A DNA stretch of 64,000 bases from Candidatus Saccharicenans sp. (GTDB lineage Bacteria; Acidobacteriota; Aminicenantia; Aminicenantales; Saccharicenantaceae): the NCBI GenBank assembly GCA_024653215.1, contig JANLFU010000003.1, positions 1-64,000 of the forward strand, in the 5' to 3' direction. Made by a program: the position numbers and the translations under genes. Under the pieces are notes generated by a model that was not told where the DNA came from, ran no database searches, and was given only the letters and a program-made list of their open reading frames with translations. Of the stretch, positions 3,514-20,432 are shown one piece after another; within the stretch, counting starts at the first letter, position 1, and every line of letters begins with the position of its first letter.

Positions 3514-6233
3514 CACCCGGAAGGCTTTTCCTGATTGACGGCAACTCGCTTCTCTACCGCTCCTACTACGCCATCCAGAAGCTGACCAACTCGGCCGGTT
3601 TTCCCACCAATGCCATCTATGGTTTTATCAATACCCTGAATAAGATAATAGAGGAAGAAAAGCCGGAGTACCTGGGGGTGGTGTTCGATACCGGGGCCCC
3701 CACCCTGCGGCACCAGGCCTACCGCGAATACAAGGCCGGGCGCCGGCCAATGCCCCAGGACCTGGTGGTCCAGGTCCCGGTTTTGAAAAAAGTAATCGCG
3801 GCCCGGCGGATTCCCCTGTTTGAATACACCGACTATGAGGCCGACGATGTCCTGGCCACCCTGGCCCGGAAGGCTTCGGGACAGAAAGTCTGCACCATCA
3901 TCGTCACCACTGACAAGGACCTGCTGCAGGTGCTCGGCCCCAGGGTGGTAATCTATAACCCGGCTCGCAACCTGTACCTGGTTGACCGGTGCCTGGAACC
4001 GGACTGCCTGGCCCTGCTCAAAGGAAAAGAGGTCAAAACGGCCGAGGAATATTTCGGGGTACCGGCCGGGCTGGTGGCCGATGTCCTGGCCCTCTGGGGA
4101 GACGCCTCCGACAACATCCCCGGCGTCCCTGGAGTGGGGGAGAAAACCGCCAAGACCCTGATCCAGGAGTTCGGCTCGCTCGATAACCTGGTGGCCAACC
4201 TGGAGCGGGTCAAGAACCCCCGGATCAGGGAAAGCCTCAAGAGCAACCTGGACCGCCTGGAATTGAGCCGGAAGCTGGTCCGGGTGGAAGACAACCTCGA
4301 CCTGGAACTCAACCTGGAGACTTTCAAGCCACAGGAGCCTGACAGCGAGACCCTGGTCGAGCTCTACCGCGAGCTGGAATTCACCAGCTTTATCCCACAA
4401 TATTTAAATAAAAAGGAAAGGGCCGGCCGGGATTTCAAGACCATCCTGGACAGAGAATCGTTCCAGGAGTTCCTCCGCGCCGCCGGCCAGGCCGGGGAAA
4501 TTGCGCTCGACACCGAGACCACCAACCTCTTCCCGACCCGGGCCCGGCTGGTGGGCTTATCTTTTTCGCTCAGGCCCGGTGAAGCCTGTTATATCCCTTT
4601 ACGCCATAACTATCCGCTGGCCCCCACCCAGCTGCCGGCTGACTACGTGCTCCATGAACTAAAACCCCTGCTGGAGAACCCGGGCCTCAAAAAAATCGGC
4701 CAGAACATAAAATATGATTACATCGTCCTCAAAAGGGAAGGTCTTCAACTCCAGGGTATCCACCTCGACACCATGGTCCTGTCCTATCTTCTGGAACCCA
4801 ACTGGGGCAAACATAACCTGGATAAGCTGGCCGCCTACTACCTGCAGGAGGCCAAGATCCCGTTTGATAGCCTGGTCGGAAAGGGAAAAAAACAACTGAC
4901 CATGGACCTGGTACCGGTGGACCGGGCAGCCGAGTATGCCTGCCAGGATGCCCATCTGGCCCTGAGCCTCAGCCGGGTCCTCTGGCCAAAAATCGAGGCC
5001 CGGAAACTGGACTGGCTGTACCGGGAAATGGAGCTGCCCCTGATTGAGGTGCTAGCCGAAATGGAAATGGCTGGCGTCCGGCTGGACCTGAAGTTACTCA
5101 AGGAAATGGGGGCAGAGCTGGAAGGCCAGCTCCGCCGCCTGGAAAAGAATATTTACGAGATGGCCGGGCAGGAATTTAACATCAACTCCCCCCAGCAGCT
5201 CAGCCAGGTCCTGTTCTACAAGCTCAACCTGCCGGCCAGCAAGAAGACCCGGATTACCCGGGGGCTGTCCACGGCCACCGACATCCTGGAAGAACTGGCC
5301 CCCAGGCATCCCCTGGCTGGAGCGGTGCTGGAGTACCGTCAGCTGTCCAAGCTCAAGTCCACCTATACCGATGCCCTGGCTGAACTGGTCAATCCGGAAA
5401 CAGGGCGGGTCCATACCTCTTACAACCAGACGGTAACGGCCACCGGCCGGCTCTCTTCCTCCGACCCCAACTTGCAGAACATTCCGGCCCGGGGCGAGCT
5501 GGGAAAACGGATTCGCCAGGCTTTTATCCCCGAGGAGGGCCATCTTCTGCTTTCGGCCGATTACTCGCAGATCGAACTGCGACTGCTGGCCCACCTGTCA
5601 GAAGACCCGCTTCTCCTGGAAACTTTCCGCAGCGACCGGGACGTCCACAGCGAGACGGCCCGGCTGGTATTCGGGTCGGCCGGGGAGTTGTTCCCCGAGG
5701 AAATGAGGCGACGGGCTAAAATCATAAACTTCAGCATCATCTACGGGACTTCCGCCTTTTCCCTGGCCAAAGAACTGGAGACTTCCAACACCGAGGCCCA
5801 GAAATTCATTGACCGTTACTTTGACCAGCATAAAAAAGTCCGGGAATATTTGGACCGGGTGGTGGAGGAGGCCCGCGAGCGGGGCTATGCCGAAACCCTC
5901 TTTGGCCGCCAGCGCCAGATCCCCGAACTGAAAAGTCCCGACCACAACACTTTCCAGGCCGGGCGCCGGATGGCCCTGAATACCCCTATTCAGGGCTCGG
6001 CCGCCGACATCATCAAGCTGGCCATGGTCAAGATCTACCGCGAGCTGAAGGCGCGGGGGCTTAAGACCAGGATGATACTCCAGGTTCATGACGAGCTGGT
6101 GTTCGAGGTGCCCGAGAAGGAACGGGCCACGGTCGAGCCCCTGGTCCGGGACGGTATGGAAAATATCTGTTCTCTGCAGGTGCCCCTTAAAGTGCGCCTG
6201 GGCTGGGGCCGCAACTGGGCTGAGGTCAAGTAG
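3510..6233 (+). CDS. polA: DNA polymerase I with 5'-3' and 3'-5' exonuclease domains
   Basis: 907 aa; FEN domain (LIDGNSLLYRSYYA), exo motif LDTETTN, polymerase motifs SADYSQIELRLLAH, RRRAKIINFSIIYG, LQVHDELVFEV. Confidence 0.97.
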   Translation: MTPGRLFLIDGNSLLYRSYYAIQKLTNSAGFPTNAIYGFINTLNKIIEEEKPEYLGVVFDTGAPTLRHQAYREYKAGRRPMPQDLVVQVPVLKKVIAARRIPLFEYTDYEADDVLATLARKASGQKVCTIIVTTDKDLLQVLGPRVVIYNPARNLYLVDRCLEPDCLALLKGKEVKTAEEYFGVPAGLVADVLALWGDASDNIPGVPGVGEKTAKTLIQEFGSLDNLVANLERVKNPRIRESLKSNLDRLELSRKLVRVEDNLDLELNLETFKPQEPDSETLVELYRELEFTSFIPQYLNKKERAGRDFKTILDRESFQEFLRAAGQAGEIALDTETTNLFPTRARLVGLSFSLRPGEACYIPLRHNYPLAPTQLPADYVLHELKPLLENPGLKKIGQNIKYDYIVLKREGLQLQGIHLDTMVLSYLLEPNWGKHNLDKLAAYYLQEAKIPFDSLVGKGKKQLTMDLVPVDRAAEYACQDAHLALSLSRVLWPKIEARKLDWLYREMELPLIEVLAEMEMAGVRLDLKLLKEMGAELEGQLRRLEKNIYEMAGQEFNINSPQQLSQVLFYKLNLPASKKTRITRGLSTATDILEELAPRHPLAGAVLEYRQLSKLKSTYTDALAELVNPETGRVHTSYNQTVTATGRLSSSDPNLQNIPARGELGKRIRQAFIPEEGHLLLSADYSQIELRLLAHLSEDPLLLETFRSDRDVHSETARLVFGSAGELFPEEMRRRAKIINFSIIYGTSAFSLAKELETSNTEAQKFIDRYFDQHKKVREYLDRVVEEARERGYAETLFGRQRQIPELKSPDHNTFQAGRRMALNTPIQGSAADIIKLAMVKIYRELKARGLKTRMILQVHDELVFEVPEKERATVEPLVRDGMENICSLQVPLKVRLGWGRNWAEVK

Positions 6234-6267
6234 TGAAGCAGTTAATCAGGAAGGGCGGGAGCCTGGC

Positions 6268-7395
6268 TCAGACCAGGGCCTTCTGGTAAACCCGGTAAAC
6301 CTTATAGATTTTGCCGCCCAGCCTTTCCATCTCAGACCGGACCCGGACGTTGGCCTCCATCTCGTGGTGGGTATCCATGATTTCAAAGCCGGCTTTCTGG
6401 GCCGAGCTCAACAGGGCCACACCCATCAGGGCATCCAGGCCCATGCCCCGGTATTCTTTCTTGATGGCCCCCAGGAGCAGGTCCAGCTGCTTGGTCTTCT
6501 TCTGGGCCCTCAGGACATGGATGAAACCAAACGGGAAAAGCCGGCCCCGGGCTTTCTTTATCCCGGCGGTCATATCGGGAATGGCCACGATGAAGGCCAC
6601 CACCTGGCCGTCCTTCAGAACCCCCTTGATGAACCTGGGGTCGAGAACCGGCAGGTATTTCCTGGCCAGGTCGTCCATCTCTTTTTCATCCAGCGGGGCG
6701 TAGCCGTAGATATTACTCTCCACGTAGGTTTCGTTCATCAGGGACAGGATGGGCCTGATCCAGGGTTTTATTTCCTTACGCTTTCTGAATTCCAGTATCT
6801 TGAAATTCCCCTTTTTAAGAATCCTCTCGGCAATCTTGGTGTAGATTTCGGGGATTTCTTTAGGCACTTCAATTTTATATACAAAATAATCGATATCCTT
6901 GCTGTAACCTTCCTTTTCCACCATCTCCGGCAGCCACTCGAAATTGTAGTAGGTGGCGATGGTGGCCCGGTTTTCAAAGCCCTTTATGAGAAAACCCTCG
7001 GGGTCCTGGTCCGAAAAACCGTAGGGTCCGATTATTCTGGTCATGCCCTTTTCCCGGGCCCACTGCTCGACCCGAGACAGCAGGGCATGGACCACGGCCT
7101 GGTCCTGGATGCTCTCCAGATAGCCGAAGCGGGCGGTCTTTTCGTTGCGGACCTCGTTGTACCGGTGGTTGATGATGCCCATCACCCGGCCGACCACCTG
7201 GCCGTCTTTTTCGGCCAGCAGCATCAGGGTATCAGAGTAGCTGAAGGCCTTGTTCTTTTTGGGGTTGAAATAGGCCCATTCATCCATGTAGATGGGATGA
7301 ACCCAGTTGGGCTGGTCCTGGTGGAGTTTTTCGGGCAGGTAAATAAAGGTCTTAAGCTGGGGCTTGGTTTTGACTTCGATCAGGTTAATGCTCAT
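6268..7395 (-). CDS. GNAT/YghO-like acetyltransferase family protein
   Basis: 375 aa; GPYGFSDQDPEGFLIKGFENRATIATYYN and C-terminal GNAT-like YRGMGLDALMGVALLSSAQKAGF. Confidence 0.6.
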   Translation of the reverse strand: MSINLIEVKTKPQLKTFIYLPEKLHQDQPNWVHPIYMDEWAYFNPKKNKAFSYSDTLMLLAEKDGQVVGRVMGIINHRYNEVRNEKTARFGYLESIQDQAVVHALLSRVEQWAREKGMTRIIGPYGFSDQDPEGFLIKGFENRATIATYYNFEWLPEMVEKEGYSKDIDYFVYKIEVPKEIPEIYTKIAERILKKGNFKILEFRKRKEIKPWIRPILSLMNETYVESNIYGYAPLDEKEMDDLARKYLPVLDPRFIKGVLKDGQVVAFIVAIPDMTAGIKKARGRLFPFGFIHVLRAQKKTKQLDLLLGAIKKEYRGMGLDALMGVALLSSAQKAGFEIMDTHHEMEANVRVRSEMERLGGKIYKVYRVYQKALV

Positions 7396-7537
7396 GGCCG
7401 TTTCCCTTCTGACAAGGGATTTTACCAGATTTTGCGAAAAAAAAGTAAATAATTTTTTGCTCTGTCCTTGTGGAAAAGGGGGTGCAGATGCTGTGAAAAA
7501 ATACCTTGATATTTTGTGAAATTCTTGTGTTAAATTC

Positions 7538-7567
7538 TTGACAATAAGTTTTTTATTTTAATATACT
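7538..7567 (+). promoter_or_regulatory. sigma70-like promoter of the hydrogenase operon
   Basis: TTGACA (7538-7543) - 18 bp - TATACT (7562-7567); ATG follows at 7577. Confidence 0.6.
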
Positions 7568-7576
7568 CAATAACTC

Positions 7577-9007
7577 ATGAAAGTAGAAGCCATTACCCTT
7601 CTTACCATTTTTATTCCGATTTTGGGTTCGTTGCTGGTGCCTCTGGCCGGAGCCATCTCGCCCCGCCTCCGTTCCGCCTGGTCGGTCCTGCTGGGAGCCA
7701 TCACCGCGGTTCTCCCCCTGACCCTGATTCCCCAGGCCATGAAGGGCGGCGAGGTCATCTGGTCCAGGAGCCTGGCCCTGGGTCTGGATTTCGTCCTGGT
7801 CATCGATCCCCTGTCCATTTTCATGGCCATTGTCTCCTCGTTCATCGGCTTCCTGATCATCGTCTACTCGCTCGGCTACATCCACCACGAAGACCACCAG
7901 AATGAGTACTACCTGATGGTGGTCCTGTTCATCGGCTCCATGATGGGACTGGTGTTCTCCAGCAGCCTGGTCTTCATGTACCTGTTCTGGGAAATCATCG
8001 CCATCGCCTGCTGGCGGCTGATCGGGTTCTACCGGCAGAAGGATTACATCCTCAAGGCCGATAAAGCCTTCCTGGTCACCTTCGGCGGGGCGGTGGTCAT
8101 GCTGCTGGGTTTCATCCTCATCTACGGGCAGACCGGGACCTTCAACCTGGTGGACATGCGCGGAGTGGCCATCTCCGGAACCGCCGTGCTGCTGATCCTG
8201 TTCGGCATGTTCTCCAAGTCGGCCACCGTTCCCCTGCACACCTGGCTGCCGGATGCCGGCGTGGCCCCGACCACGGTTACCGCCCTGCTGCACGCCGCCG
8301 TCCTGGTCAAGATCGGCGTCTATGCCTATGCCAGGTTGTTCCTCTATACCTTCAAGATCCCGCCCGACTGGCAGCAGGCCATCATCATCCTGGCCGTCCT
8401 GTCCAGCCTGGTGGCGGCCGGCGCGGCCACGGTGGAAAATGACTTCAAGAGAATTCTGGCCTATTCCACGGTCAGCCAGATCGGCTACATTTTCCTGGGC
8501 CTGAGCGTGGCCACGCCCACGGCCATCTCCGGCTCGCTGCTATTTATCCTGATGCACGGCCTGGCCAAGGCCGGCTTATTCCTTTGCGCCGGCATAGTCA
8601 TCCATGCCACGCATAAACGCGATATAAGAGAGATGGGCGGGCTGATCAAGACCATGCCCATCACGGCTATCTCTTTCCTGATATGCGCCTTTTCAGTTAT
8701 CGGACTGCCGCCTCTGGGCGGTTTCTTCTCCAAGCTCCTGGTCATCATGGGCACGGTCCAGGCTGACCAGGTCTGGGTGGCAGCCCTGGCCCTGTTCACC
8801 GCGGTTCTGACCATGTTCTACCTGCTCCGGGTGTTCGCCCTGGTTTTCCTCGGTGAGCCCAAGATCCCGGCCCCGGAGAAAACACCATCCATGGTCGGGG
8901 TGGTGGCCACCCTGGCCGTGCTGTCGGTGGTGGCCGGGCTGCTGGTAGCCTACCCGATGAAACTGGTCCAGATGGCAACAACTCACATCAGCTGGTGGCT
9001 AAGATGA
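7577..9007 (+). CDS. complex I/Mrp antiporter-like proton-pumping membrane subunit (NuoM/N-, MrpD-like)
   Basis: 476 aa polytopic; VFMYLFWE and KSATVPLHTWLPDA motifs with conserved Glu/Lys. Confidence 0.88.
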   Translation: MKVEAITLLTIFIPILGSLLVPLAGAISPRLRSAWSVLLGAITAVLPLTLIPQAMKGGEVIWSRSLALGLDFVLVIDPLSIFMAIVSSFIGFLIIVYSLGYIHHEDHQNEYYLMVVLFIGSMMGLVFSSSLVFMYLFWEIIAIACWRLIGFYRQKDYILKADKAFLVTFGGAVVMLLGFILIYGQTGTFNLVDMRGVAISGTAVLLILFGMFSKSATVPLHTWLPDAGVAPTTVTALLHAAVLVKIGVYAYARLFLYTFKIPPDWQQAIIILAVLSSLVAAGAATVENDFKRILAYSTVSQIGYIFLGLSVATPTAISGSLLFILMHGLAKAGLFLCAGIVIHATHKRDIREMGGLIKTMPITAISFLICAFSVIGLPPLGGFFSKLLVIMGTVQADQVWVAALALFTAVLTMFYLLRVFALVFLGEPKIPAPEKTPSMVGVVATLAVLSVVAGLLVAYPMKLVQMATTHISWWLR

Positions 9008-10872
9008 GTCCAACAACTTTATTATGGCCAATCCTGTTCCCGGCGGTGGTGGCGGTGGTGCTGCTGCTAATCCCCTCCCGGGTTAAGTACCTGCGGGAAG
9101 TCCTGTCGGTCCTGAGCTCGGGCGCGCTGCTGTACCTCGGTTTTGCGCTCTTTTCACAGAGAAACCTGAGCCTGGTAGCCGACTGGCTCGGCCTGGGCAT
9201 AAATTTTGACCTCCGGCTCTACCATTTCTCGTCCTTCATCCTGCTGGCGCTAAGCGGCTTCCTTTTCCTGATCTGTCTCTACTCGGCGGTCAAGATGCAT
9301 AACCACCCGCGCGTCCGGGAATATTACGGTTATGTCTTCCTGGCGGCCGCCTTCTCCAACGGGGCGGTGCTGGCCAATAATTTCGTCCTGCTGGTCTTCT
9401 TCTGGGAAGCACTGCTGATAACCACCTACGCCCTGGTCACCCTGGGGCTGAAACCGACCTCGCACCGGACGGCGGTCAAGTCGCTGATCATCGGCGGCTT
9501 CTGTGATTTTGCCATGATACTGGGAATTGGCCTGCTCTGGGCTTCCACCGGCACCCTGACCATGGACAAAATCCAGGTTGAGCCGCACGGCCTGACCGTG
9601 GCCGCCTTTGTATTGATGATGATCGGGGCCATCGGCAAGGCCGGGGCCATGCCCTTTCACACCTGGATTCCCGACGCCGCCCTGGATGCCCCGGTGAGCT
9701 TCATGGCCTTCATGCCGGCTTCCTTCGAGAAACTCCTGGGCATTTACCTCCTGGCCCGCATCACCCTTGATTTCTTCGAACTCAAGGTGGGCAGCGGGCT
9801 GTCCATACTGCTGATGATTATCGGCGCGGCCACCATCGTCTTCGCCGTCTTCATGGCCCTGATTCAGAAAGATTTCAAGAAGTTGCTGTCCTTCCACGCC
9901 GTGAGCCAGGTGGGCTACATGGTGCTGGGCGTGGGCACGGCCATTCCCATCGGCATTGCCGGCGGTATCTTTCACATGATCAACCACGCCATGTACAAGT
10001 GCGGGTTGTTCCTCAGCTCGGGCTCGGTGGAACACCGGACCGGCACCACCGAACTCAAGAAACTCGGTGGTCTGGCCCGGGAGATGCCCTGGACGGCGGC
10101 CGGTTTTGTGGTCTGCGCCCTGGCCATCTCGGGCGTCTGGCCACTGAACGGTTTTGTTTCCAAGGAAATGGTCTTCCACGGGGCGCTGGAAACCGGCTAC
10201 CCGATTTTCGCCATCGCTGCCTGGGTGGGAGCGATTTTCACCTTCGCTTCCTTCCTGAAGGCCGGGCACTCGGTCTTCTTCGGACCGCGTTCGACCGAGG
10301 TCCCCAAAACCAGGGAAAGCGAGGCCCCGATCGTCCTGCCGATTCTAATCCTGGCCGCCCTGTGTATTACCTTCGGTGTGTATAACAAGCTGCCCCTGCA
10401 GAATTTCATCCAGCCCATCCTCCACGGACACGTGGAAGCCGGGGAGCACCTGGACTTCACCTCCCATGCCCTGGACCTGTTCAACCCGGTGGCCGGAGTC
10501 TCCATCCTCTGTCTCATTATCGCCCTGGGCATTCATTTTTATGGCTGGAACCGCGGCGGCAAGAAGGCCTACCTGGCCTCCGAACCGATCCACAACCTGC
10601 CGGTGCTGCACAAGCTGTATGACCTGTCCGAGGCCCGGTTCTTTGACCTCTACGAGCAGGGCGTTAAATTCCTGCAGTGGCTGAGCCGGCTGCTGTTCCG
10701 GTTCATCGACCGGCCGATCGATTATCTCTACGAAAAAGTGGTCACGGCCACGGGCCGGACTTTTACCGGCCTGCTGCAGAAAGCCCATAACGGCCAGTAT
10801 GCCAATTACCTGGCCTGGACCGTCGGCGGCCTGGTGGTCGTCGTCTGGATAATACTTCAGTTATTAAAATAG
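9004..10872 (+). CDS. NuoL/HyfB-like antiporter subunit
   Basis: ~622 aa; VFFWEALL, GKAGAMPFHTWIPDA; ATGA overlap with previous gene (alternative GTG start at 8995). Confidence 0.88.
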   Translation: MSPTTLLWPILFPAVVAVVLLLIPSRVKYLREVLSVLSSGALLYLGFALFSQRNLSLVADWLGLGINFDLRLYHFSSFILLALSGFLFLICLYSAVKMHNHPRVREYYGYVFLAAAFSNGAVLANNFVLLVFFWEALLITTYALVTLGLKPTSHRTAVKSLIIGGFCDFAMILGIGLLWASTGTLTMDKIQVEPHGLTVAAFVLMMIGAIGKAGAMPFHTWIPDAALDAPVSFMAFMPASFEKLLGIYLLARITLDFFELKVGSGLSILLMIIGAATIVFAVFMALIQKDFKKLLSFHAVSQVGYMVLGVGTAIPIGIAGGIFHMINHAMYKCGLFLSSGSVEHRTGTTELKKLGGLAREMPWTAAGFVVCALAISGVWPLNGFVSKEMVFHGALETGYPIFAIAAWVGAIFTFASFLKAGHSVFFGPRSTEVPKTRESEAPIVLPILILAALCITFGVYNKLPLQNFIQPILHGHVEAGEHLDFTSHALDLFNPVAGVSILCLIIALGIHFYGWNRGGKKAYLASEPIHNLPVLHKLYDLSEARFFDLYEQGVKFLQWLSRLLFRFIDRPIDYLYEKVVTATGRTFTGLLQKAHNGQYANYLAWTVGGLVVVVWIILQLLK

Positions 10873-10882
10873 AGGAGGAGCG

Positions 10883-12361
10883 GTGGTTTTCTCATTCATT
10901 GTCATTCCGTTACTGGTAGCTGCCTTTCTGCCTCTGGTAGGAAAGTTTTCTAAGAAACTGCTGCCCGACGTGCTGACCAACGCCGCTCTGGCTTTCCTGG
11001 TGTTCAACTCCATCCTGCTGGTCAAGCCCATTTTCAACCAGGGTGTCATCGTCCAGAACCTGAACTGGCTGGGGGAACGGGTCAACCTGCAGGTAGCCCT
11101 GGACGGGTTCAACCTGTTCATGCTGTTCACCATCTCCCTGGTCAGCCTGTGCATCTCGCTCTTTTCCATCGACTACCTGGAGCATTACGGGCACAAGTCG
11201 ACCTTTTACGCCCTGTTCCTGGTGATGATCGCCGGAATGAACGGTCTGGTGCTGGTCCCGGACCTGTTCTCGGTTTACCTCTTCCTGGAAGTGGCCGCCG
11301 TGGCTTCCTATGCCCTGGTGGCCTTCGGCCTGGGCTACGACGAGCTGGAAGCCTCCTTCAAGTACCTGATGCTGTCGGTGGTGGCTTCGGCCTTCGCCCT
11401 GCTCAGCATCACCGTCATTTTCGGGATGACGGGCAGCCTCAACTTCCAGGCCGTGGCCCAGGGACTTCAGGACCTGCAGGCCAGGCTGGTGCTGGGGGTG
11501 TGCGTGGCCTTCTTCATCATGGGCTTCGGATTGAAGGCCGCCCTGGTGCCCTTCCACGCCTGGTTGCCCGATGCCCATCCTTCGGCCCCGGCTCCCATTT
11601 CGGCCATGCTGTCGGGCCTGTTGATCAAGGTTTCCGGTATCTATGCCCTGTTCAGAATTATCTACAGCGTTATCGGCCTGACCCCGGTTCTGTCGCAGCT
11701 GTTGATGGCCCTGGGCACCATCTCCATGGTGGTGGCCGCCCTGCTGGCCCTCGGCCAGAAGGACATCAAGAGAATGCTGGCCTACTCATCCATCAGCCAA
11801 GTCGGCTACATCGTGCTGGGCCTGGCCCTGGGCACTCCCCTGGGTATTGCCGGGGCGCTGTTCCACCTGTTCAACCACGCCGTGGCCAAGGGGCTGCTGT
11901 TCTTGAACTCGGGCTCCATCCAGCACATCACCGGCACCCGGAACCTGGAAGAGCTGGGTGGCCTTGGTAAGATGGTCCCGGTTACAGCCGGAACCAACCT
12001 GGTGGGCGCCCTGTCCATTGCCGGGGTTCCGCCCCTGGCCGGCTTCTGGAGCAAGCTGATCATCATCATGGCCCTCATCCAGGCCAGGGAATTCGGCTAC
12101 GCCCTGGTGGCCATCCTGGCCAGCATCCTGACCCTCTGGTATTACCTGCTCATCCAGAGAAAGGCCTTTTTCGGCCGGGTGGCTGAAAAGTGGTCGCAGG
12201 TCCGGGAGGCTCCGTTCTGGATGTCGGCGGCCAACGTGGTGTTGGCCCTGGTCTGCATCCTGGTGGGCATTTTCTTCACGCCAATTTTTAAGACCTGGAT
12301 TTCCCCGGCGGCCGAGGCCCTGGCCCGGGGAATCCAACAGGTTCTGATGTGGGGATTGTGA
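10883..12361 (+). CDS. NuoM/MrpD-like antiporter subunit
   Basis: 492 aa; VYLFLEVAAVASYALVAF, LKAALVPFHAWLPDAHPSAPAPISAMLSG; GTG start. Confidence 0.88.
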   Translation: MVFSFIVIPLLVAAFLPLVGKFSKKLLPDVLTNAALAFLVFNSILLVKPIFNQGVIVQNLNWLGERVNLQVALDGFNLFMLFTISLVSLCISLFSIDYLEHYGHKSTFYALFLVMIAGMNGLVLVPDLFSVYLFLEVAAVASYALVAFGLGYDELEASFKYLMLSVVASAFALLSITVIFGMTGSLNFQAVAQGLQDLQARLVLGVCVAFFIMGFGLKAALVPFHAWLPDAHPSAPAPISAMLSGLLIKVSGIYALFRIIYSVIGLTPVLSQLLMALGTISMVVAALLALGQKDIKRMLAYSSISQVGYIVLGLALGTPLGIAGALFHLFNHAVAKGLLFLNSGSIQHITGTRNLEELGGLGKMVPVTAGTNLVGALSIAGVPPLAGFWSKLIIIMALIQAREFGYALVAILASILTLWYYLLIQRKAFFGRVAEKWSQVREAPFWMSAANVVLALVCILVGIFFTPIFKTWISPAAEALARGIQQVLMWGL

Positions 12362-12362
12362 T

Positions 12363-12851
12363 ATGGCAATACAAATAATTCTGCTCTGCGGCCTGGTCAT
12401 CTTCTCGGCTCTGGCCATTCTGCTCAAGGACCTGATCAAAGCCGCCCTGTCGCTGGCCGTGGCCAGCCTGCTGCTGGGTATCATTTTCTTCCGGCTGGCC
12501 GCTCCCTATGCCGCCGTCTTCGAGATCTCGGTGGTGGCCGGGTTGATTACGGTCCTGTTCATCCTGACCATCGCCCTGACCAAGAAAGGAGACGAGGTAA
12601 CCGAGGCCCGGCTGGTCAAGCTGGCCTTCCCGGTCTTCCTGATCCTGTTCTTGGTCATCGATGGGCTGGTCATGAAGTCCCTGCTGCAGAAGATCCCGGC
12701 CCTGCCCTCGGGACCGGAAGCCGGCACCTTTGGCGAGGTCCTCTGGAAGCAGCGGACCTTTGACCTGGTGGCCCAGGTCGGCGTCATCCTGGCCGGGGTG
12801 CTGGCCGTGCTGGCCTTATTCCGGAAAAAGGAAGAAGACAAAGATGAGTAA
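12363..12851 (+). CDS. NuoJ-like membrane subunit
   Basis: 162 aa, KAALSLAVASLLLGIIFFRLAAPYAAVFEISVVAGLITVLFI as in NuoJ; position before NuoK-like gene. Confidence 0.75.
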   Translation: MAIQIILLCGLVIFSALAILLKDLIKAALSLAVASLLLGIIFFRLAAPYAAVFEISVVAGLITVLFILTIALTKKGDEVTEARLVKLAFPVFLILFLVIDGLVMKSLLQKIPALPSGPEAGTFGEVLWKQRTFDLVAQVGVILAGVLAVLALFRKKEEDKDE

Positions 12852-13152
12852 CCTGTGGTTTCTTTACCTTTTCTTTGCCGCCCTGCTGATCTTCATCGGC
12901 CTGTACTGCCTGCTCACCATGCGCAACCTGATCAAGCTGTTCATCGCGGTGGAAGTCATCAGCAAGGGAGTCAGCCTGGCCATCGTGGCTACGGGCGCCG
13001 TCAAGAATAACATCCTGCTGGCCCAGAGCCTGGCCATAACCTACATCGTGGTCGAGGTGGCCCTGGTGGCCACCGCCCTGGCCCTGATCATCAACATCTA
13101 TAAGAAGAATAAGAGCCTGGATGTCCGCTTACTTTCAAAACTGAAGGGATAA
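12844..13152 (+). CDS. NuoK/MrpC/HyfE-like membrane subunit
   Basis: 102 aa; GLYCLLTMRNLIKLFIAVEVISKGVSLAIVATG; overlaps preceding gene. Confidence 0.82.
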   Translation: MSNLWFLYLFFAALLIFIGLYCLLTMRNLIKLFIAVEVISKGVSLAIVATGAVKNNILLAQSLAITYIVVEVALVATALALIINIYKKNKSLDVRLLSKLKG

Positions 13153-13155
13153 GCC

Positions 13156-13488
13156 ATGAATGGACTGCAATTCTTACTGTCTCCGCCGGTGGCCTTCTTT
13201 TTCTTCCTGGCCGTGGCCGGACTGCTCTATGCCCTGGGCCGGGCCATGGCCCCCGGCCTGAACCGCACCCCGGGCAAGCTCACCACCTATGCCTGCGGCG
13301 AGGATATCCCGGGCGTCAAGGTGCAGTTCGGGTACCGGCTGTTCTACGTCTTCGCCCTGTTCTTCACCATCATGCACGTGGCCGCCCTGGTAATGGCTAC
13401 TATTCCGATCGGAAAAATAGTATATTTGGGTATATTCTATCTGGCCCTGATCTTCCTGGCCATCCTGGCCCTGATTACGAGGGATTAA
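13156..13488 (+). CDS. NuoA-like membrane subunit
   Basis: 110 aa; TTYACGEDIPGVKVQFGYRLFYVFALFF resembles NuoA YECG...F.YYLFA. Confidence 0.75.
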   Translation: MNGLQFLLSPPVAFFFFLAVAGLLYALGRAMAPGLNRTPGKLTTYACGEDIPGVKVQFGYRLFYVFALFFTIMHVAALVMATIPIGKIVYLGIFYLALIFLAILALITRD

Positions 13489-13489
13489 C

Positions 13490-13915
13490 ATGCTGACCAA
13501 ACTGACTCACTGGTCCAGGTTGAAATCGCCCTGGATTCTGCACCTGAACACGGGTGCCTGCAACGCCTGCGACATCGAAGTGGTGGCCGCTCTGACCCCG
13601 CGCTTCGACGTGGAGCGGTTCGGCATCCTGCTCAAGGCCACGCCCCGGCATGCCGACGTCATCGTCTGCACCGGCCCGGCCACCAGGCAGATGAAGGACC
13701 GGCTGATCCGGATTTACGAGCAGACCCCGGACCCCAAGTTCGTCATCGCCGTCGGGGCCTGCGCCATGTCCGGCTGCGTCTACCGCGGCGCCTACAATGT
13801 CATTGGCGGGATTGACCAGGTCATCCCGGTGGACGTCTATGTCCCGGGCTGCCCGGTGCGCCCCGACGCGGTTATCGACGGGGTGGTCAAACTGCTTAAT
13901 AAACTGAAGGGATGA
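13490..13915 (+). CDS. group 4-type [NiFe] hydrogenase small subunit (NuoB/EchC/MbhJ-like)
   Basis: NTGACNACDIEVVA (CxxC), GACAMSGCVY, VPGCPVRPD cluster ligands. Confidence 0.9.
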   Translation: MLTKLTHWSRLKSPWILHLNTGACNACDIEVVAALTPRFDVERFGILLKATPRHADVIVCTGPATRQMKDRLIRIYEQTPDPKFVIAVGACAMSGCVYRGAYNVIGGIDQVIPVDVYVPGCPVRPDAVIDGVVKLLNKLKG

Positions 13916-13922
13916 GGTCAAA

Positions 13923-14396
13923 ATGAACGACCAGATAGTGATAGATAAAGCTAAAGCCAGCCTGGGGGATAAGGCGCTGGAGATCACCAACCCGGCTCCC
14001 CGCCGCATTTTTATCCGGGTGAAGGTGGACGACCTGCTGGCGGCCGTCGGCTGGCTCAGAAACGAGATGGGCTTTACCCACCTGGCCACCATCAGCGGGG
14101 TGGACCTGGGCCAGGCCTTCGAGCTCATTTACCACTTCGCCAACAACTTTACCTGCGTTAACCTGCGAACCGAGATACCGCGGGACAACCCTCTCCTGCC
14201 AAGTATCTGCGAGATAATTCCTGGAGCCATCCTCTACGAGCGGGAACTCCAGGACATGTTCGGGATTGTCGTCCAGAATATTCCTGACGGCCGCCCCCTG
14301 GTGCTGCCCGACGACTGGCCGGCCGGCAACTACCCCCTGCGCAAGGACTGGAAGTACGAGAGGCCGCCGGAAGTCATTCCTGGAGGTAAGAAATGA
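13923..14396 (+). CDS. NuoC/EchD-like subunit (hydrogenase/complex I 30 kDa family)
   Basis: 157 aa; ERELQDMFGIVVQNIPDGRPLVLPDDWPAGNYPLRKDW. Confidence 0.88.
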   Translation: MNDQIVIDKAKASLGDKALEITNPAPRRIFIRVKVDDLLAAVGWLRNEMGFTHLATISGVDLGQAFELIYHFANNFTCVNLRTEIPRDNPLLPSICEIIPGAILYERELQDMFGIVVQNIPDGRPLVLPDDWPAGNYPLRKDWKYERPPEVIPGGKK

Positions 14397-15595
14397 AGTT
14401 TCAGATACCCATCGGACCACAGCATCCGGCTCTGAAGGAGCCCATCAGCCTGCGGATGACCGTGGAGGGAGAAATTATCCGCGATGCCGACCTCCGTCTC
14501 GGCTACAATCACCGCGGGCTGGAAAAGCTGGCCGAGCAGAAAACCTGGATTCAGAATATCTACCTGACCGAGCGCATCTGCGGCATCTGCTCGCACTCTC
14601 ACACCACCTGTTATGTTCAGGGCGTGGAGAAGCTGATGGAGATTGAACCCCCCAAGCGCGGCCAGTACATACGTTACCTGGTCTCGGAGCTGGAAAGGAT
14701 CCACAGCCACCTGCTCTGGCTGGGCGTGGCCGGTCACGAGGCCGGGTTTGACAGCTTTTTCATGTACACCTGGCGCGACCGGGAAATCGTCATGGACATC
14801 CTGGAGATAATCAGCGGCAACCGGGTGCACTACGGGATCAATACCATCGGCGGGGTCCGCCGCGACCTGGACGAACAGCAGGTCAAGCACATTCTCGACT
14901 CCCTGGCCATACTCCGCCAGCGCAGCGAATATTACCAGCATCTCGGGACCAACGAGCCGAGCTTCGTGGCCAGGCTGGCCGGGGTCGGCTACCTGTCCAG
15001 GGAAGACGCCATCGCCCTGTGCGCCGTTGGCCCCACAGTCCGGGCCTCCGGGGTGCCGATGGACGTCCGCAAGGACGACCCCTACGGCATCTACGACGAG
15101 GTGCCCTTTGAGGTCTGCACGGCCGAAACCTGCGATGTCCTGGGGCGGACCGTGGTCAGGATCAAAGAATTATTCCAGTGCTACAACATTATTGAATACC
15201 TCCTGAAGAACCTGCCCACCGGGCCGGTGGCCGTCCGGGCCCCGCGCCGGGCCAAGCCCAACGAGGTGGTCAGCCGCTACGAGGCCCCGCGCGGCGAGAA
15301 CATACACTACATCAAGAGCAACGGTACCGATAAACCGGAGCGGCTTAAGGTCCGGGCCCCCACCCTGGGCAACTACGCCGCCACCATCAAGATGCTCAAG
15401 AACGGCTTCATCGCCGATGTCCCGCTGATTTTCGCGGCCATCGACCCCTGCATCTGCTGCGCCGAGCGGGCGGTGGCGCTGGTCGATGCCCGGAGCGGTC
15501 AGGAAAAAATTATTTCCATGAACGCCTTAAAACAACTCAGCCGCCAGGTTGCGGCTGGGAACGCCAGAAAGAGGGAAGCAGAATGGCCACTGTGA
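14393..15595 (+). CDS. group 4-type [NiFe] hydrogenase large (catalytic) subunit
   Basis: 400 aa; N-terminal RICGICSHSH and C-terminal DPCICCAER, i.e. all four NiFe-ligating Cys, plus C-terminal tail. Confidence 0.93.
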   Translation: MKFQIPIGPQHPALKEPISLRMTVEGEIIRDADLRLGYNHRGLEKLAEQKTWIQNIYLTERICGICSHSHTTCYVQGVEKLMEIEPPKRGQYIRYLVSELERIHSHLLWLGVAGHEAGFDSFFMYTWRDREIVMDILEIISGNRVHYGINTIGGVRRDLDEQQVKHILDSLAILRQRSEYYQHLGTNEPSFVARLAGVGYLSREDAIALCAVGPTVRASGVPMDVRKDDPYGIYDEVPFEVCTAETCDVLGRTVVRIKELFQCYNIIEYLLKNLPTGPVAVRAPRRAKPNEVVSRYEAPRGENIHYIKSNGTDKPERLKVRAPTLGNYAATIKMLKNGFIADVPLIFAAIDPCICCAERAVALVDARSGQEKIISMNALKQLSRQVAAGNARKREAEWPL

Positions 15596-16554
15596 AGACT
15601 CTGATCTATCTCATCGTCTATCCCGGTCTTCTCTTCTTGTTCCTGTATTCCACCTTCGTTGAGTGGTACGACCGCAAACTCTACGCCCGGCTTCAGAACC
15701 GCATGGGCCCGACCCATACCGGTCGCTTTGGGCTGCTGCAGCCCATCGCCGATTTCTTCAAGCTGATGGCCAAAGAGGACATCGTGCCGGACCGGGCTGA
15801 CCGGAAAATGTTCTCGGCCCTGCCGGCGGTGGGGCTGGCCATAGTCTTCACGGCCATGCTGCTGCTTCCGGTCTGGAATTACAGCCTGGACCGGCCCTCG
15901 GTCACTTCCTTTAACGGCGACCTCATCGTCCTGCTCTACCTCCTGAGCCTGCCGACCTTCATCTTCTTCCTGGCCGGCTGGTCGTCGACCAACCTTTTCT
16001 CCACCATCGGCGGAGCCCGGGTCCTGACCATGCTCTTCGGCTATGAAGTCCCGCTGTTCCTGGCCGTCCTGAGCCCGGCCGTCCTGGCCAACTCCTGGCG
16101 CCTGGCTGAAATTGCCGCCTTCTACCGGCAGCGGCCGGCCCTGGCCCTGGTCAACCTGCTGGGCTTTGTCATCGCCCTGATCTGCGTCCAGGCCAAGCTG
16201 GAACGCACTCCCTTTGACATTCCCCATGCCGAAACCGAAATAGTCGGCGGCACCTTTACCGAATATTCAGGTAAGAAACTGGCTATCTTCCGCCTGATGA
16301 TGGACGCCGAGATGGTGGTGGCCGCCGGCCTGCTGGCCACCGTTTTTCTGGGCGGCTTCCCCGGCGGAGCGCTGCTGGGACTGGTCAACTTTATCGTCAA
16401 GACGCTGGTGGTAATTTTCTTCCTGTCTTTAATCCGGGCCACCACTTCCAGGATCAGGGTGGACCAGGTGGTCAGTTTCGCCTGGAAATACCTGGCCCCG
16501 CTGGCCATACTGCAGCTTTTAATCGTCATCCTGGTAAAGGGGTTACTTTCATGA
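15583..16554 (+). CDS. NuoH/EchB-like membrane subunit
   Basis: 323 aa; YARLQNRMGPTHTGRFGLLQPIADFFKLMAKED, ERTPFDIPHAETEIVGG.EYSG. Confidence 0.92.
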   Translation: MATVKTLIYLIVYPGLLFLFLYSTFVEWYDRKLYARLQNRMGPTHTGRFGLLQPIADFFKLMAKEDIVPDRADRKMFSALPAVGLAIVFTAMLLLPVWNYSLDRPSVTSFNGDLIVLLYLLSLPTFIFFLAGWSSTNLFSTIGGARVLTMLFGYEVPLFLAVLSPAVLANSWRLAEIAAFYRQRPALALVNLLGFVIALICVQAKLERTPFDIPHAETEIVGGTFTEYSGKKLAIFRLMMDAEMVVAAGLLATVFLGGFPGGALLGLVNFIVKTLVVIFFLSLIRATTSRIRVDQVVSFAWKYLAPLAILQLLIVILVKGLLS

Positions 16555-16949
16555 AGATAGGCGTGTTTATCCCTGAACTTCTCCGCCACCTGTTTAAGAA
16601 ACCGGCCACGGTTGATTACCCGTTCCAGAAACTGGAGGTGCCCAGGGATTTCCGGGGTTCGCCCTACCTCCGCCCCGAGCTGTGCATAGTCTGCCGGGCC
16701 TGCGAGCGCGACTGCCCGGCCGAAGCCATCGAAATTACGGCCACCAACGAGGCCGAGAAGAGATTCAGGATGGTCATCCACAACGACCGCTGCATCCACT
16801 GCGCCCAGTGCGTGGACTCCTGTCCGACCGACGCCATGCAGATGGACACCAAGTTTGAAATCTCCGACTACGACCGCCACAACCTGAAGATGGAATGGGA
16901 ATACGTCCGGGCGGTGGTCAAGCCCAAATCCGAGCCCAAGACTTCATAG
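16551..16949 (+). CDS. NuoI/HycF-like 2x[4Fe-4S] ferredoxin subunit
   Basis: CIVCRACERDCPAEAIEI and CIHCAQCVDSCPTDAM. Confidence 0.92.
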   Translation: MKIGVFIPELLRHLFKKPATVDYPFQKLEVPRDFRGSPYLRPELCIVCRACERDCPAEAIEITATNEAEKRFRMVIHNDRCIHCAQCVDSCPTDAMQMDTKFEISDYDRHNLKMEWEYVRAVVKPKSEPKTS

Positions 16950-17030
16950 GAACCTGAGGCCGCCGGGGTTGATTTGCCCGGCACCCGGGATTAAATTAAG
17001 AGCGGACCGAGACCTGGAGGGGAGGGGCGG

Positions 17031-17534
17031 ATGCCTGACCGCTGGGTTGAATTTCTTAAGAAAGAACTGAAGGGTATAGACCGGTTGCTGGTCCTGGGCA
17101 CGGGCAACGCCCTTAAGGCCGACGATGCGGCCGGGTTGCTGGTGGCCAGCCTGCTCGACCGGCGCCTCAGCCGCCGCCAGAAGGCCAGAATCAAAGTCCT
17201 CCGGGTTTACGAGCTAATCGATTCTTACAACCGCAGGATAAAGCGCCTGAAGCCCTCTCACCTGATAATAGTCGACGCCCTGGACACCGGGCACCAGCCG
17301 GGATACATCATGGCCACCAGGCTGGAGCCCGGCCGGAGAAAAAAGAAGAAGATAAGTAGCGAATTCTACCAGTTACTGGAAAAGCTGACCGCCGATTCAG
17401 CCTGTCGAATTTACTTTATCGGAATTCAACCGGCTTTGCTCGACTTCGGGCACCCAATTTCCCCGCCGGTTAAAGAAGCCTCTCGCCGGGTGGCCGAATT
17501 CATATCGACCCTGGCCACCGGCTCCATTCGCTGA
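17031..17534 (+). CDS. hydrogenase maturation endopeptidase (HycI-like)
   Basis: LLVLGTGNALKADDAAGLLVASLL, LIIVDALDTG, FIGIQP; directly downstream of hydrogenase genes. Confidence 0.85.
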   Translation: MPDRWVEFLKKELKGIDRLLVLGTGNALKADDAAGLLVASLLDRRLSRRQKARIKVLRVYELIDSYNRRIKRLKPSHLIIVDALDTGHQPGYIMATRLEPGRRKKKKISSEFYQLLEKLTADSACRIYFIGIQPALLDFGHPISPPVKEASRRVAEFISTLATGSIR

Positions 17535-17537
17535 GGC

Positions 17538-18644
17538 CTAAATTTTCATCGGCATCAGCACGTACAGATAGACCCCTTTGCTTTCAGCTTCCGGTTTTAT
17601 CAGCACGGCGCTGTTCTCGTCTTTTATCTCAAAAATCACCCGGTCCGAGGTAACCGTTCCCAGGAAATCGAGCAGATACTGAGAGTTGAAGCCTATCTCC
17701 AGGTCCTTGCCCTGGTAATCCACGGCCAGCTTGTCCCTGGCTTCACCGAATTCCGGGTTGGAGGAGAAGAGCTTCAGCTCTCCGGCCTTCAGGTCGAACT
17801 TTATGCCTCGAGACTTTTCAGAGGACAGGATGGAGACCCGTTTTATGGCATTGACCAGGGCCTCTCTTTCTATGTTAAGAATGTTGGGGTTATCCCTGGG
17901 CATGACCGCCTGGTAGTTGGGGAACTTACTCTCAATTATCCGGCTGATCAGCATCCTGTTCTTTACCCGGAAAAACAGGCTGTTGTCGTCAAAGTCAAAC
18001 TCCACCCGCTCGTCGTCGAACTTTTTAAGCTCATTCAGGGTCTTTTTGGAGATAATCTGATTAATCTCTTTTTCAACCCTTAAATCTTCAAACTCTCTCT
18101 TGGTGTAGGACAGTCGGTGGCCGTCGGTGCTGACCAGTTCCAGCTGGTTGTTCTTAATCGACAGAAGGGCACCATTAAGGTAATAGCGTTGTTCCTGGGT
18201 AATAGCATAAAGGACACAATCAATCATCTCCTTGAAATCGGATACGTTCCAGGAAATGGCCCTTTCAAAACCGGAATCCTGGATGGCCGGAAAATCCTCC
18301 TCCGGCGCGGTCAGGACCTTGATCTCACTCTCTCCCGACCTGACCACCAGGTGCTCTTCCTTTTTTATGAACTCAATGGTTTGGTCCTCAGGTAATAACT
18401 TTATAAAATCAAACAACTTTCTTCCGTTGACGGCCACTTTCCCTTCCTGCCTGACCTCGGCCTCAAAGCTGGTCTTAAGGCCCACTTCCAGGTCAGTTCC
18501 CATCAACTCGACGCTGCCCCGGCCCGCCTTAACCAGAACGTTGGACAGGATGGGCATGGTCGTTCTTTTTTCCACAATACCCTGCAATAAACCTAATTCG
18601 TTAATAATATTGTTTTTAGTGGCTGAGAACTTCATTTTTTCCAC
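17538..18644 (-). CDS. dnaN: DNA polymerase III beta clamp
   Basis: 368 aa; MKFSATKNNIINELGLLQGIVEKRTTMPILSNVLV, C-term YVLMPMKI; adjacent to dnaA. Confidence 0.96.
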   Translation of the reverse strand: MEKMKFSATKNNIINELGLLQGIVEKRTTMPILSNVLVKAGRGSVELMGTDLEVGLKTSFEAEVRQEGKVAVNGRKLFDFIKLLPEDQTIEFIKKEEHLVVRSGESEIKVLTAPEEDFPAIQDSGFERAISWNVSDFKEMIDCVLYAITQEQRYYLNGALLSIKNNQLELVSTDGHRLSYTKREFEDLRVEKEINQIISKKTLNELKKFDDERVEFDFDDNSLFFRVKNRMLISRIIESKFPNYQAVMPRDNPNILNIEREALVNAIKRVSILSSEKSRGIKFDLKAGELKLFSSNPEFGEARDKLAVDYQGKDLEIGFNSQYLLDFLGTVTSDRVIFEIKDENSAVLIKPEAESKGVYLYVLMPMKI

Positions 18645-18753
18645 CTTTCTTCATGGTCAATAATATAATTAATAATCATAAAAAGGCAATAAAAAAAAAT
18701 ACAAGAAGGACGAGTGAATATGTGAAAAGCTTTATGCTTCTTTATTGATTTCA

Positions 18754-20085
18754 TCACTTTAGAAGGTGGATCAGGTTGTTGATTTCTCTGTTGAATTCCT
18801 GATCATGTTCTCTTAATTTTTCTATTTTTCTGATACTGTGAAGAACGGTGGTGTGGTGTTTACCGCCAAATTTCTTGCCGATCTCTGGTAGAGAGTTATC
18901 GGTTAATTCCTTGGCCAGGTACATGGCCACCTGCCTGGGGAAGGCCACCCGCGGTGAATTATTTTTTGACTTCAACTCGGACGGCTTGATTTTATACTGG
19001 GTGCAGACCACCTTCTGAATTTTTTCCACGGTGATGATATTGGCCGAGGCATCCAGCAGGCCCTTCAGGGCTTCCTTGGCCAGCTCCAGGTCTATTCTTG
19101 AGCCTTTGAGCGAAGCGTAGGCAATGACCCGGCGCAGGTAGCCTTCTAATTCTCGGATGTTGGAATGAACCTTGTCGGCAATATAGAGGGCCACCGGTTC
19201 GGGCAGGGCAATATCTTCCATTTCTGCCTTTTTCTTGAGGATGGCAATCCGGGTTTCAATGTCCGGCGGCCTCAGGTCGGCAATCAGGCCCCACTCAAAG
19301 CGGGAACGAAAGCGGTCTTCAAGGTGAGGAATATCCTTGGGCGGGCAATCGCTCGAAATCACTATCTGCTTCTGGCTGTCATAAAGATGGTTGAAGGTAT
19401 GGAAGAATTCCTCCTTGGTTCTCTCCCGGCCGGAGATGTAATGGATGTCGTCCATCAACAGGACGTCAACTGCCCGGTACTTCTGCCGGAACTCCAGGAT
19501 TTTTCCATACTGGAGATGGTTGATGAGCTCGTTCATGAAACGCTCGGTGGTAACATAAAGCACTTTAAGCCGGGCGTTGCTACCCATGATCTGATGCCCG
19601 ATAGCATTCATCAGGTGGGTTTTACCCAGCCCGGCCCCGCCATAGATGTACAGGGGGTTGTAGGACTTGGCCGGGTTCTTGGCCACGGCCACGGCGGCGG
19701 CGTGGGCAAATTGATTGCAGCTGCCGACCACGAAATTTTCAAAGGTGTAGTTGGGGTTGAGGTTGGCCACCTGGGTCACCGCCTGGTGGAGCTTCCTCTC
19801 GTCCGGAGAATTACGAAGAAAGGAGGTCGGGGTCTCGTCGTAAATGTACTTAATATCGAAGCTCTTGTTGAATAGTTCCTGGCAGCAGTCGTTAATCAGG
19901 CGCGAATAGTGAAAACTCAACCAGTCTTTGAAGTAGGCATTGGGGACCTTGATGTAAAGAGTTTCCCCTTCCTCTCCGATATAAGAGGTGGGCTCGAACC
20001 AGGTTTCAAAGGCCTGGCCTTCAACCCGGTTCTTGACGGCGGCCAGTATCCTGTTCCAGGGATTAACTTTATCTTCAAACTTCAT
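18754..20085 (-). CDS. dnaA: chromosomal replication initiator DnaA (start trimmed to MKFEDKVNPWN)
   Basis: Walker A YGGAGLGKTHL, Walker B VLLMDDIHYISG, domain IV GGKHHTTVLHS. Confidence 0.96.
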   Translation of the reverse strand: MKFEDKVNPWNRILAAVKNRVEGQAFETWFEPTSYIGEEGETLYIKVPNAYFKDWLSFHYSRLINDCCQELFNKSFDIKYIYDETPTSFLRNSPDERKLHQAVTQVANLNPNYTFENFVVGSCNQFAHAAAVAVAKNPAKSYNPLYIYGGAGLGKTHLMNAIGHQIMGSNARLKVLYVTTERFMNELINHLQYGKILEFRQKYRAVDVLLMDDIHYISGRERTKEEFFHTFNHLYDSQKQIVISSDCPPKDIPHLEDRFRSRFEWGLIADLRPPDIETRIAILKKKAEMEDIALPEPVALYIADKVHSNIRELEGYLRRVIAYASLKGSRIDLELAKEALKGLLDASANIITVEKIQKVVCTQYKIKPSELKSKNNSPRVAFPRQVAMYLAKELTDNSLPEIGKKFGGKHHTTVLHSIRKIEKLREHDQEFNREINNLIHLLK

Positions 20086-20098
20086 GACGGCCCAGAAG

Positions 20099-20130
20099 AT
20101 TTCCACAAATTTTTCCACAACTGTGGAAAA
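20099..20130. promoter_or_regulatory. DnaA-box-like cluster: ATTTCCACA plus inverted pair TTTTCCACA-AC-TGTGGAAAA
   Basis: Perfect 9-bp inverted repeat at 20111-20130, 26-45 bp upstream of dnaA start; matches TTWTNCACA. Confidence 0.7.
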
Positions 20131-20432
20131 CGCCCCCGCCAGTAAATCAGGTGGGGGAAACGCAAAAAATATTACCACCGGGCAGGTCAAAATTCAAGAA
20201 ATTTTTTAATTTATTTCAAAACAAAAACAATAATCAGGATGCGTTGAGTGCTGACGGCATTTTAATCGGAGTCTCGACCGCCGGGTGGCTGGCCATGGGG
20301 CCTATGTCCGTGGCTGGCCAACCTCCGCCGGCCCCCTAAAAGTTACCGCTCTCAGTTGCGCCGGGGCCTTTTTTATGCTATACAGATATTTCCAAAAGAG
20401 AACGGTAAATCTCAAGAAAGCGAGACGATCAC

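Follow-up and report, generated by a model that had tools for sequence, protein, structure and literature searches.

A putative energy-converting [NiFe] hydrogenase with a complete complex-I core encoded in a Candidatus Saccharicenans-like genome

The route that leads from hydrogenases to complex I is an open question. It is usually argued from Mbh, an enzyme in which several parts of complex I are missing, and from archaeal gene clusters that are uncharacterised. The same question is raised in a bacterium by an operon found at positions 7577-17534, on the plus strand, of a 64,000-nucleotide (nt) stretch of contig JANLFU010000003.1 (the window, within which all positions are counted). Its twelve collinear, head-to-tail genes, the open reading frames and translations of which were checked, probably encode a membrane-bound energy-converting [NiFe] hydrogenase which combines all eleven core subunits of complex I with its own maturation protease, and which would act as a ferredoxin-to-H2 ion pump near the stage preceding complex I. 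The host genome (2.6 Mb, approximately 92% complete) is that of a Candidatus Saccharicenans-like sediment bacterium of the Aminicenantales, and its closest named relative is Candidatus Saccharicenans subterraneus, the large subunit of which is 98% identical.

Subunit composition and the NiFe site

The genes follow the order Ant1-Ant2-Ant3-J-K-A-B-C-D-H-I-protease, where Ant stands for antiporter-like subunits and the letters for Nuo-like ones, with junctions of -13 to +10 nt and the exception of 81 nt ahead of the protease gene. Ten subunits score above the curated Pfam cut-offs: three as Proton_antipo_M (Ant1-3), and the others as NADH dehydrogenase chains 6 (J) and 4L (K), the 20 kDa (B), 30 kDa (C) and 49 kDa (D) subunits, NADHdh (H) and a two-cluster ferredoxin-like protein (I). 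The protease is HycI by Pfam, and A (chain 3) falls marginally below its cut-off. The initial annotation of this DNA had described twelve collinear genes, many of them overlapping, and this same subunit set with a protease; all the reading frames were recovered at those coordinates and the assignments were borne out by profiles. It had also given antiporter lengths of about 476, 622 and 492 residues, of which the first and the last stand, while the second depends on the start codon chosen (Table 1). No NuoE, NuoF or NuoG gene or other NADH module was found within the operon, as had been claimed, nor any F420 module, three NuoF-type proteins being encoded elsewhere in the genome. An extra Mrp Na+ module of the MbhABCF type is likewise missing, and the operon holds no further genes.

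The large subunit, D, carries the features of a hydrogenase. When its sequences CGICSHSH and DPCICCAER were compared with the group 4 patterns (L1, C[GS][ILV]C[AGNS]xxH; L2, [DE][PL]Cx[AGST]Cx[DE][RL]), all four NiFe cysteines were present, and a single L2 position departed from the published pattern, with Cys355 where A, G, S or T is expected. The four cysteines are kept in every one of 60 distinct orthologues, 51 of which read DPCICC in L2 and nine DPC[FY]SC, and neither motif occurs in any NuoD of the same sequence set. Furthermore, the positions of His38 and Tyr87 of Thermus Nqo4, the quinone-binding residues of NuoD, are occupied by Lys15 and Gly64 in the alignment, so that the quinone-binding residues are lacking. 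In searches against the PDB, D scored best with MbhL (295 bits), followed by HycE (285) and Nqo4 (211), and the small subunit B with MbhJ (172 bits, compared with 135 for NdhK). The proximal [4Fe-4S] site of B, formed by C24, C27, C91 and C121, aligns with that of MbhJ, and it contains the C24-x-x-C27 spacing instead of the tandem CC which holds cluster N2 in complex I; the earlier calls of RICGIC and DPCICC in D and of CxxC in B were all found in place. In addition, the motif cysteines of I suit two [4Fe-4S] clusters. As regards maturation, the solved MbhL chain stops at the Arg equivalent to Arg359 of D, after which the 41-residue extension begins. The protease gene was detected at 31 of the 41 complete loci, and HypD, the Hyp protein that was searched for, is encoded elsewhere in the genome.

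Two side observations concern the large subunits of other enzymes. An extra L2 cysteine beside the second NiFe ligand is also seen, as DPCYCC, in an Omnitrophota class of Mrp-linked hydrogenases (loci L044 and L153-L156), the sister clade having Ser. A different type of group 4 hydrogenase (locus L113, positions 3788-13080; also L097, L098, L099 and L110), which adjoins an aldehyde ferredoxin oxidoreductase in the Azospirillum plasmid pAB510b, has a large subunit that ends directly after DPCxSCTxR, hence without a cleavable C-terminal tail.

The membrane subunits bring in the complex-I character. H is closer to NuoH of Thermus (174 bits) than to MbhM (96) or HycD (77). The A subunit scored 23.1 bits against a cut-off of 23.3, that is, 0.2 bits short; nevertheless, 20 of its 33 orthologues match the PF00507 family and no other at E<=0.001, and a profile of the 33 matched 20 distinct PDB sequences, every one of them NuoA/ND3. 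It retains the YACG (YxCG) loop, with the acidic pair D79/E81 of complex I changed to His74 and Ala76. J passes the cut-offs of both NuoJ (PF00499) and MbhD (PF13244), as does every one of its 30 orthologues, and its profile places MbhD at the top of the PDB matches and NuoJ second. The annotated A and J thus hold in profile checks, A through its orthologues and the PDB and J through both families. The AlphaFold2 models, of low confidence by the predicted local distance difference test (63 for J, 66 for A), are taken as evidence of topology alone: five helices over the full length of J and three in A. Searched with Foldseek, the J model matched NuoJ/ND6 and MbhD chains, none at E<=0.001, and the A model gave no matches. 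In K, Glu37 is equivalent to E36 of NuoK and Glu71 aligns near E72.

The Glu and the three Lys which line the proton path of NuoL are present in Ant1 (E139, K214, K331, K386), Ant2 (E138, K215, K335, K390) and Ant3 (E136, K218, K336, K391), which makes three ion channels plausible. Ant2 bears a C-terminal extension with a final hydrophobic segment at residues 606-624. In a quick tree of antiporters, Ant1 clustered with NuoL and HyfD, and Ant2 and Ant3 each with antiporters of Mrp-linked hydrogenases from the same phyla, so that the three are not simply NuoL, NuoM and NuoN.

Table 1. Features of the operon, with positions in the window
Feature	Position	Strand	Basis
Promoter, sigma-70 type, TTGACA-N18-TATACT	7538..7567	+	11 of 12 consensus matches
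Ant1, 476 aa, relatives of NuoL/HyfD type, without lateral-helix extension	7577..9007	+	PF00361 (247 bits), PF00662
Ant2, 625 aa from GTG 8995 (622 aa from ATG 9004)	8995..10872	+	PF00361 (185 bits)
Ant3, 492 aa, MrpD-like	10883..12361	+	PF00361 (233 bits)
J, NuoJ-like, 162 aa, five predicted helices	12363..12851	+	PF00499 (37.9 bits), PF13244 (33.2 bits)
K, NuoK-like, 102 aa, start at 12844	12844..13152	+	PF00420 (67.3 bits)
A, NuoA-like, 110 aa	13156..13488	+	PF00507
B, NuoB-like small subunit, 141 aa	13490..13915	+	PF01058
C, NuoC-like, 157 aa	13923..14396	+	PF00329 (105 bits)
D, NuoD-like [NiFe] large subunit, 400 aa	14393..15595	+	PF00346, PF00374
L1 motif, R61-ICGIC-66, NiFe ligands C63 and C66	14573..14590	+	Motif in D
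L2 motif, D351-PCICC-356, NiFe ligands C353 and C356, extra C355	15443..15460	+	Motif in D
C-terminal extension of D, 41 aa after Arg359, presumed protease substrate	15470..15592	+	MbhL comparison
H, NuoH-like, 323 aa, complex-I type	15583..16554	+	PF00146 (292 bits)
I, NuoI-like, 132 aa, two CxxCxxCxxxCP motifs	16551..16949	+	Fer4 families; PRK08348/NuoI/HycF models
Maturation protease, HycI family, 167 aa	17031..17534	+	PF01750 (36 bits, cut-off 23); TIGR00072 above cut-off

Only 9 nt separate the -10 box of the promoter from the first start codon of the operon, too few for a Shine-Dalgarno site, and the transcript is therefore probably leaderless or nearly so. Both hexamers and the distance between them are the same in the window as in eight related genomes, the upstream intergenic region being divergent. 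The neighbours of the operon at one end are polA and a GNAT gene; at the other end, dnaN and dnaA follow on the opposite strand (17538-20190). The names polA, dnaN and dnaA are readings of the translations, and this neighbourhood would place the operon near the likely replication origin.

Placement between hydrogenases and complex I

The trees are unrooted and were built without Ech, Eha, Ehb, Fpo and archaeal Hfo, so that being nearest to complex I holds among the sampled enzymes, and the classes called Mrp-linked, AOR-linked and Ehf-like were assigned here from gene neighbours. In the D tree (LG+C20) the clade of the operon joins its sister, of 55-59% identity, with support 98/97, and both together with NuoD stand apart from Mbh, Hyc/Hyf and the Mrp-linked, AOR-linked and Ehf-like enzymes (99/91). 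The H tree agrees with this placement (100/98), the B tree is consistent with it, and in the joined B+D+H tree (873 columns) the clade and complex I are split from all other sampled group 4 enzymes with support 100/99. According to approximately unbiased (AU) tests, a grouping with Mbh and the AOR-linked enzymes is rejected on the joined alignment (p-AU 0.005) and not quite on D alone (p-AU 0.054), and one with the Mrp-linked enzymes is rejected on D alone (p-AU 0.011). The suggestion that this hydrogenase lies close to the transition towards complex I is therefore upheld by three single-gene trees, the joined tree and the AU test; among the well-characterised group 4 clades sampled, D falls in none that has this layout. 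On these trees, the clade is placed between the other sampled group 4 hydrogenases and complex I, and the complex is, as judged from scores and profiles, a mosaic in which B and D are nearest to hydrogenases, H and A are of complex-I type and J is both MbhD- and NuoJ-like. A NuoD that had regained its NiFe site was also considered and rejected; it would need the joint return of the motifs, the C-terminal extension, the protease and the CxxC of B.

The synteny check agreed with an operon as well. The eleven-gene order is identical in all 41 loci that hold all eleven genes, which is far beyond chance, and these loci span the Aminicenantales, other Aminicenantia and Acidobacteriota, and the Omnitrophota. 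A D subunit of at least 55% identity was found in 35 of the 396 Acidobacteriota genomes drawn and in 11 of the 35 of the Omnitrophota group, one of the latter being only partial. A scan of viral contigs yielded no relatives. Identity between the two phyla amounts to 70-75%, which suggests that the cassette was transferred as a whole. Such a strictly conserved cassette, which is present in about 45 of the bacterial genomes sampled across the two phyla, offers a broad sequence set for ordering the changes towards complex I, namely the loss of the NiFe site, the gain of the quinone pocket and of the NuoA acidic pair, and the replacement of antiporters; the enzyme itself would be a living look-alike of the presumed complex-I ancestor.

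Some individual genomes deserve mention. One from the Acidobacteriota (G021) has two eleven-subunit hydrogenases (contigs C119 and C55; loci L073 and L104), which represent both subclades and the D proteins of which are 77% and 59% identical to that of the window. At the Omnitrophota locus L044 (9974-18441) an eleven-subunit hydrogenase and a Mrp-linked group 4 hydrogenase, with D proteins 41% identical, are encoded on one strand at a distance of approximately 3 kb. The record of locus L047 is titled Vermiphilus sp., and its genome (G397) groups with the phylum of the Omnitrophota genome G396; the name is perhaps wrong or the contig misplaced.

Proposed function and its alternatives

What the sequences show directly is the subunit set, the intact ligands of the NiFe site and of the FeS clusters, the conserved proton-path residues and the absence of quinone-binding ones, whereas the donor, the direction and the ion are inferred. 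The lack of a NADH or F420 module and the two [4Fe-4S] clusters of I make ferredoxin the likely donor, and the oxidation of ferredoxin coupled to H2 formation and ion pumping appears the most likely reaction. Ferredoxin reduced in sugar fermentation would pass its electrons to the I subunit with its two clusters, from where they would run via the B cluster to the NiFe site of D, protons being converted to H2. H, A, J and K would relay the small free energy to Ant1-3, where as many as three channels would export H+ or Na+ and thereby feed ATP synthesis. In evolutionary terms, the enzyme would descend from, or closely resemble, the hydrogenase stage just before the NiFe site became the quinone site of complex I.

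The host genome gives this proposal a setting. Neither RnfC nor canonical complex I was matched in it, an absence that is uncertain at about 92% completeness, and the only other NuoD-like protein belongs to a 577-residue Hyc/Hyf-like hydrogenase (G000:C30:171537); that hydrogenase and the enzyme of the operon are consequently the candidates for ferredoxin-linked pumping. There are two ATP synthases, of V/A type and F type (G000:C31:103830-104255 and G000:C30:84197-84382; L183 and L185), the rotor subunits of which contain LPGTQG, HQGK and VETYA, and Q with ET. These residues are of the Na+-binding type in both, so that Na+ may be the useful ion for the host. A group 3c-like hydrogenase of the VhuA/MvhA type is also encoded (G000:C30:124815-126071; L093), near a NuoF-type gene at 128116.

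Several points weigh against this proposal. No ferredoxin gene lies in the operon. By our own estimate, the step from ferredoxin (about -500 mV) to H2 (-414 mV) yields about 17 kJ per two electrons, which at standard H2 would pay for no more than one ion. Moreover, other residues stand at the positions of Asp79 and Glu81 of NuoA and of one Glu of NuoH, and the coupling path close to the active site would thus be unlike that of complex I. At 1 Pa H2 the yield would rise to about 45 kJ, and the range of 17-45 kJ suffices for one to two ions. Three ion channels set against a reaction releasing so little energy are a physiological puzzle: with such tight energetics they seem excessive, except where H2 is kept very low or the reaction is reversed, and hence they would fit either a syntrophic mode of life with little H2 present or an enzyme working in reverse.

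Reverse use as the main mode, with H2 oxidation driving ferredoxin reduction for biosynthesis or CO2 fixation at the expense of the ion gradient, must accordingly be weighed. It was proposed for Hfo by Loh et al. (PMC7886697), and three channels would, by our estimate, provide a larger driving force than could be paid back by forming H2; however, the host lineage is described, in a passage of PMC11631310 citing Kadnikov 2019, as a fermenter producing H2 and acetate, and H2 is evolved by other group 4 enzymes of fermenters, which leaves this direction on the unlikely side. An ordinary Mrp-linked hydrogenase of the Mbh type, with NuoA and NuoJ over-read, is very improbable: J does match MbhD too, and D and B do score best against Mbh, but A matches NuoA/ND3 only, H is of complex-I type by the wide difference in bits given above, the groupings with Mbh and AOR-linked enzymes and with Mrp-linked ones are rejected by the AU tests, and the genuine Mrp-linked hydrogenases of the same phyla show another layout. 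Hardly any credit can be given to a ferredoxin oxidoreductase that keeps the four cysteines, uses another acceptor and is no hydrogenase. The group 4 relatives Mbx and Ehr do perform other chemistry (PMC6349859); nevertheless, Ehr complexes are devoid of NiFe-coordinating residues (PMC6349859), whereas here the four are invariant in 60 sequences and are accompanied by the protease and HypD.

A much more serious alternative concerns ancestry and not function, namely that the operon is a true orthologue of archaeal Hfo (HydDB group 4g), acquired by bacteria and re-ordered, only the host and the gene order being new; its chances are slightly below even. Loh et al. 2021 (PMC7886697) reported Hfo from Bathyarchaeia, with similar clusters in Pyrodictium delaneyi and Candidatus Methanomethylicus. 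They presented it as the first NiFe hydrogenase to have the eleven Fpo subunits in the Fpo gene order, and proposed that it is a link to complex I. Both enzymes have the eleven subunit types and intact L1 and L2 motifs, and both are devoid of a NADH/F420 (FpoFO or NuoEFG) module and of a separate Mrp Na+ module (PMC7886697); in addition, the cassette appears to move between phyla, given the 70-75% identity between Acidobacteriota and Omnitrophota. On the other hand, Hfo keeps the Fpo/Nuo organisation (A B C D H I J K L M N), while in all 41 complete loci the antiporters and JK come first, followed by ABCDHI, and two of the antiporters cluster with bacterial Mrp-linked complexes. With either ancestry, the ferredoxin-to-H2 ion pump remains the probable function.

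Comparison with known systems

An eleven-subunit complex-I-like NiFe hydrogenase is not new, since the archaeal Hfo was published earlier, which lowers the novelty of the present one. The open literature searched, outside which most subscription journals lie, held no description of a bacterial enzyme that combines the eleven subunits with a NiFe site, and no match for Saccharicenans together with hydrogenase. Judged by its genes, the operon is a bacterial variant of the eleven-subunit hydrogenase with its own gene order, and it differs from Hfo, compared here by its published description, also in the bacterial host and in the extra Cys of DPCICC.

Mbh of Pyrococcus furiosus (group 4d, PDB 6cfw) provides the best matches of D and B, and the N-terminal half of J resembles MbhD; the operon differs in having NuoA, a full-length NuoJ, three antiporters and an H of complex-I type, and the trees separate the two. 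The Mrp-linked group 4 hydrogenases of Omnitrophota and Acidobacteriota have the antiporters closest to Ant2 and Ant3, but they show another gene order, D proteins of 41-46% identity and no detected A subunit, and form a separate clade (100/100). This class is probably that of the Omnitrophota group 4g enzymes reported as Mrp-linked (PMC8542988); in HydDB, group 4g is a loosely defined class whose function is unknown (PMC5037454). Hyc/Hyf (group 4a), including the paralogue of the host, shares homologous D, B, H, I and antiporter subunits and the HycI protease, yet its C and D are fused, no separate A or J of complex-I type was detected, and its D is 43% identical. Finally, complex I (Nuo/Nqo, Fpo) shares homologues of A, C, H, I, J and K, three antiporter-like subunits and the residues of the membrane arm, whereas the enzyme of the operon has neither the tandem Cys in B nor the quinone residues, nor NuoEFG or FpoFO, and keeps the NiFe site.

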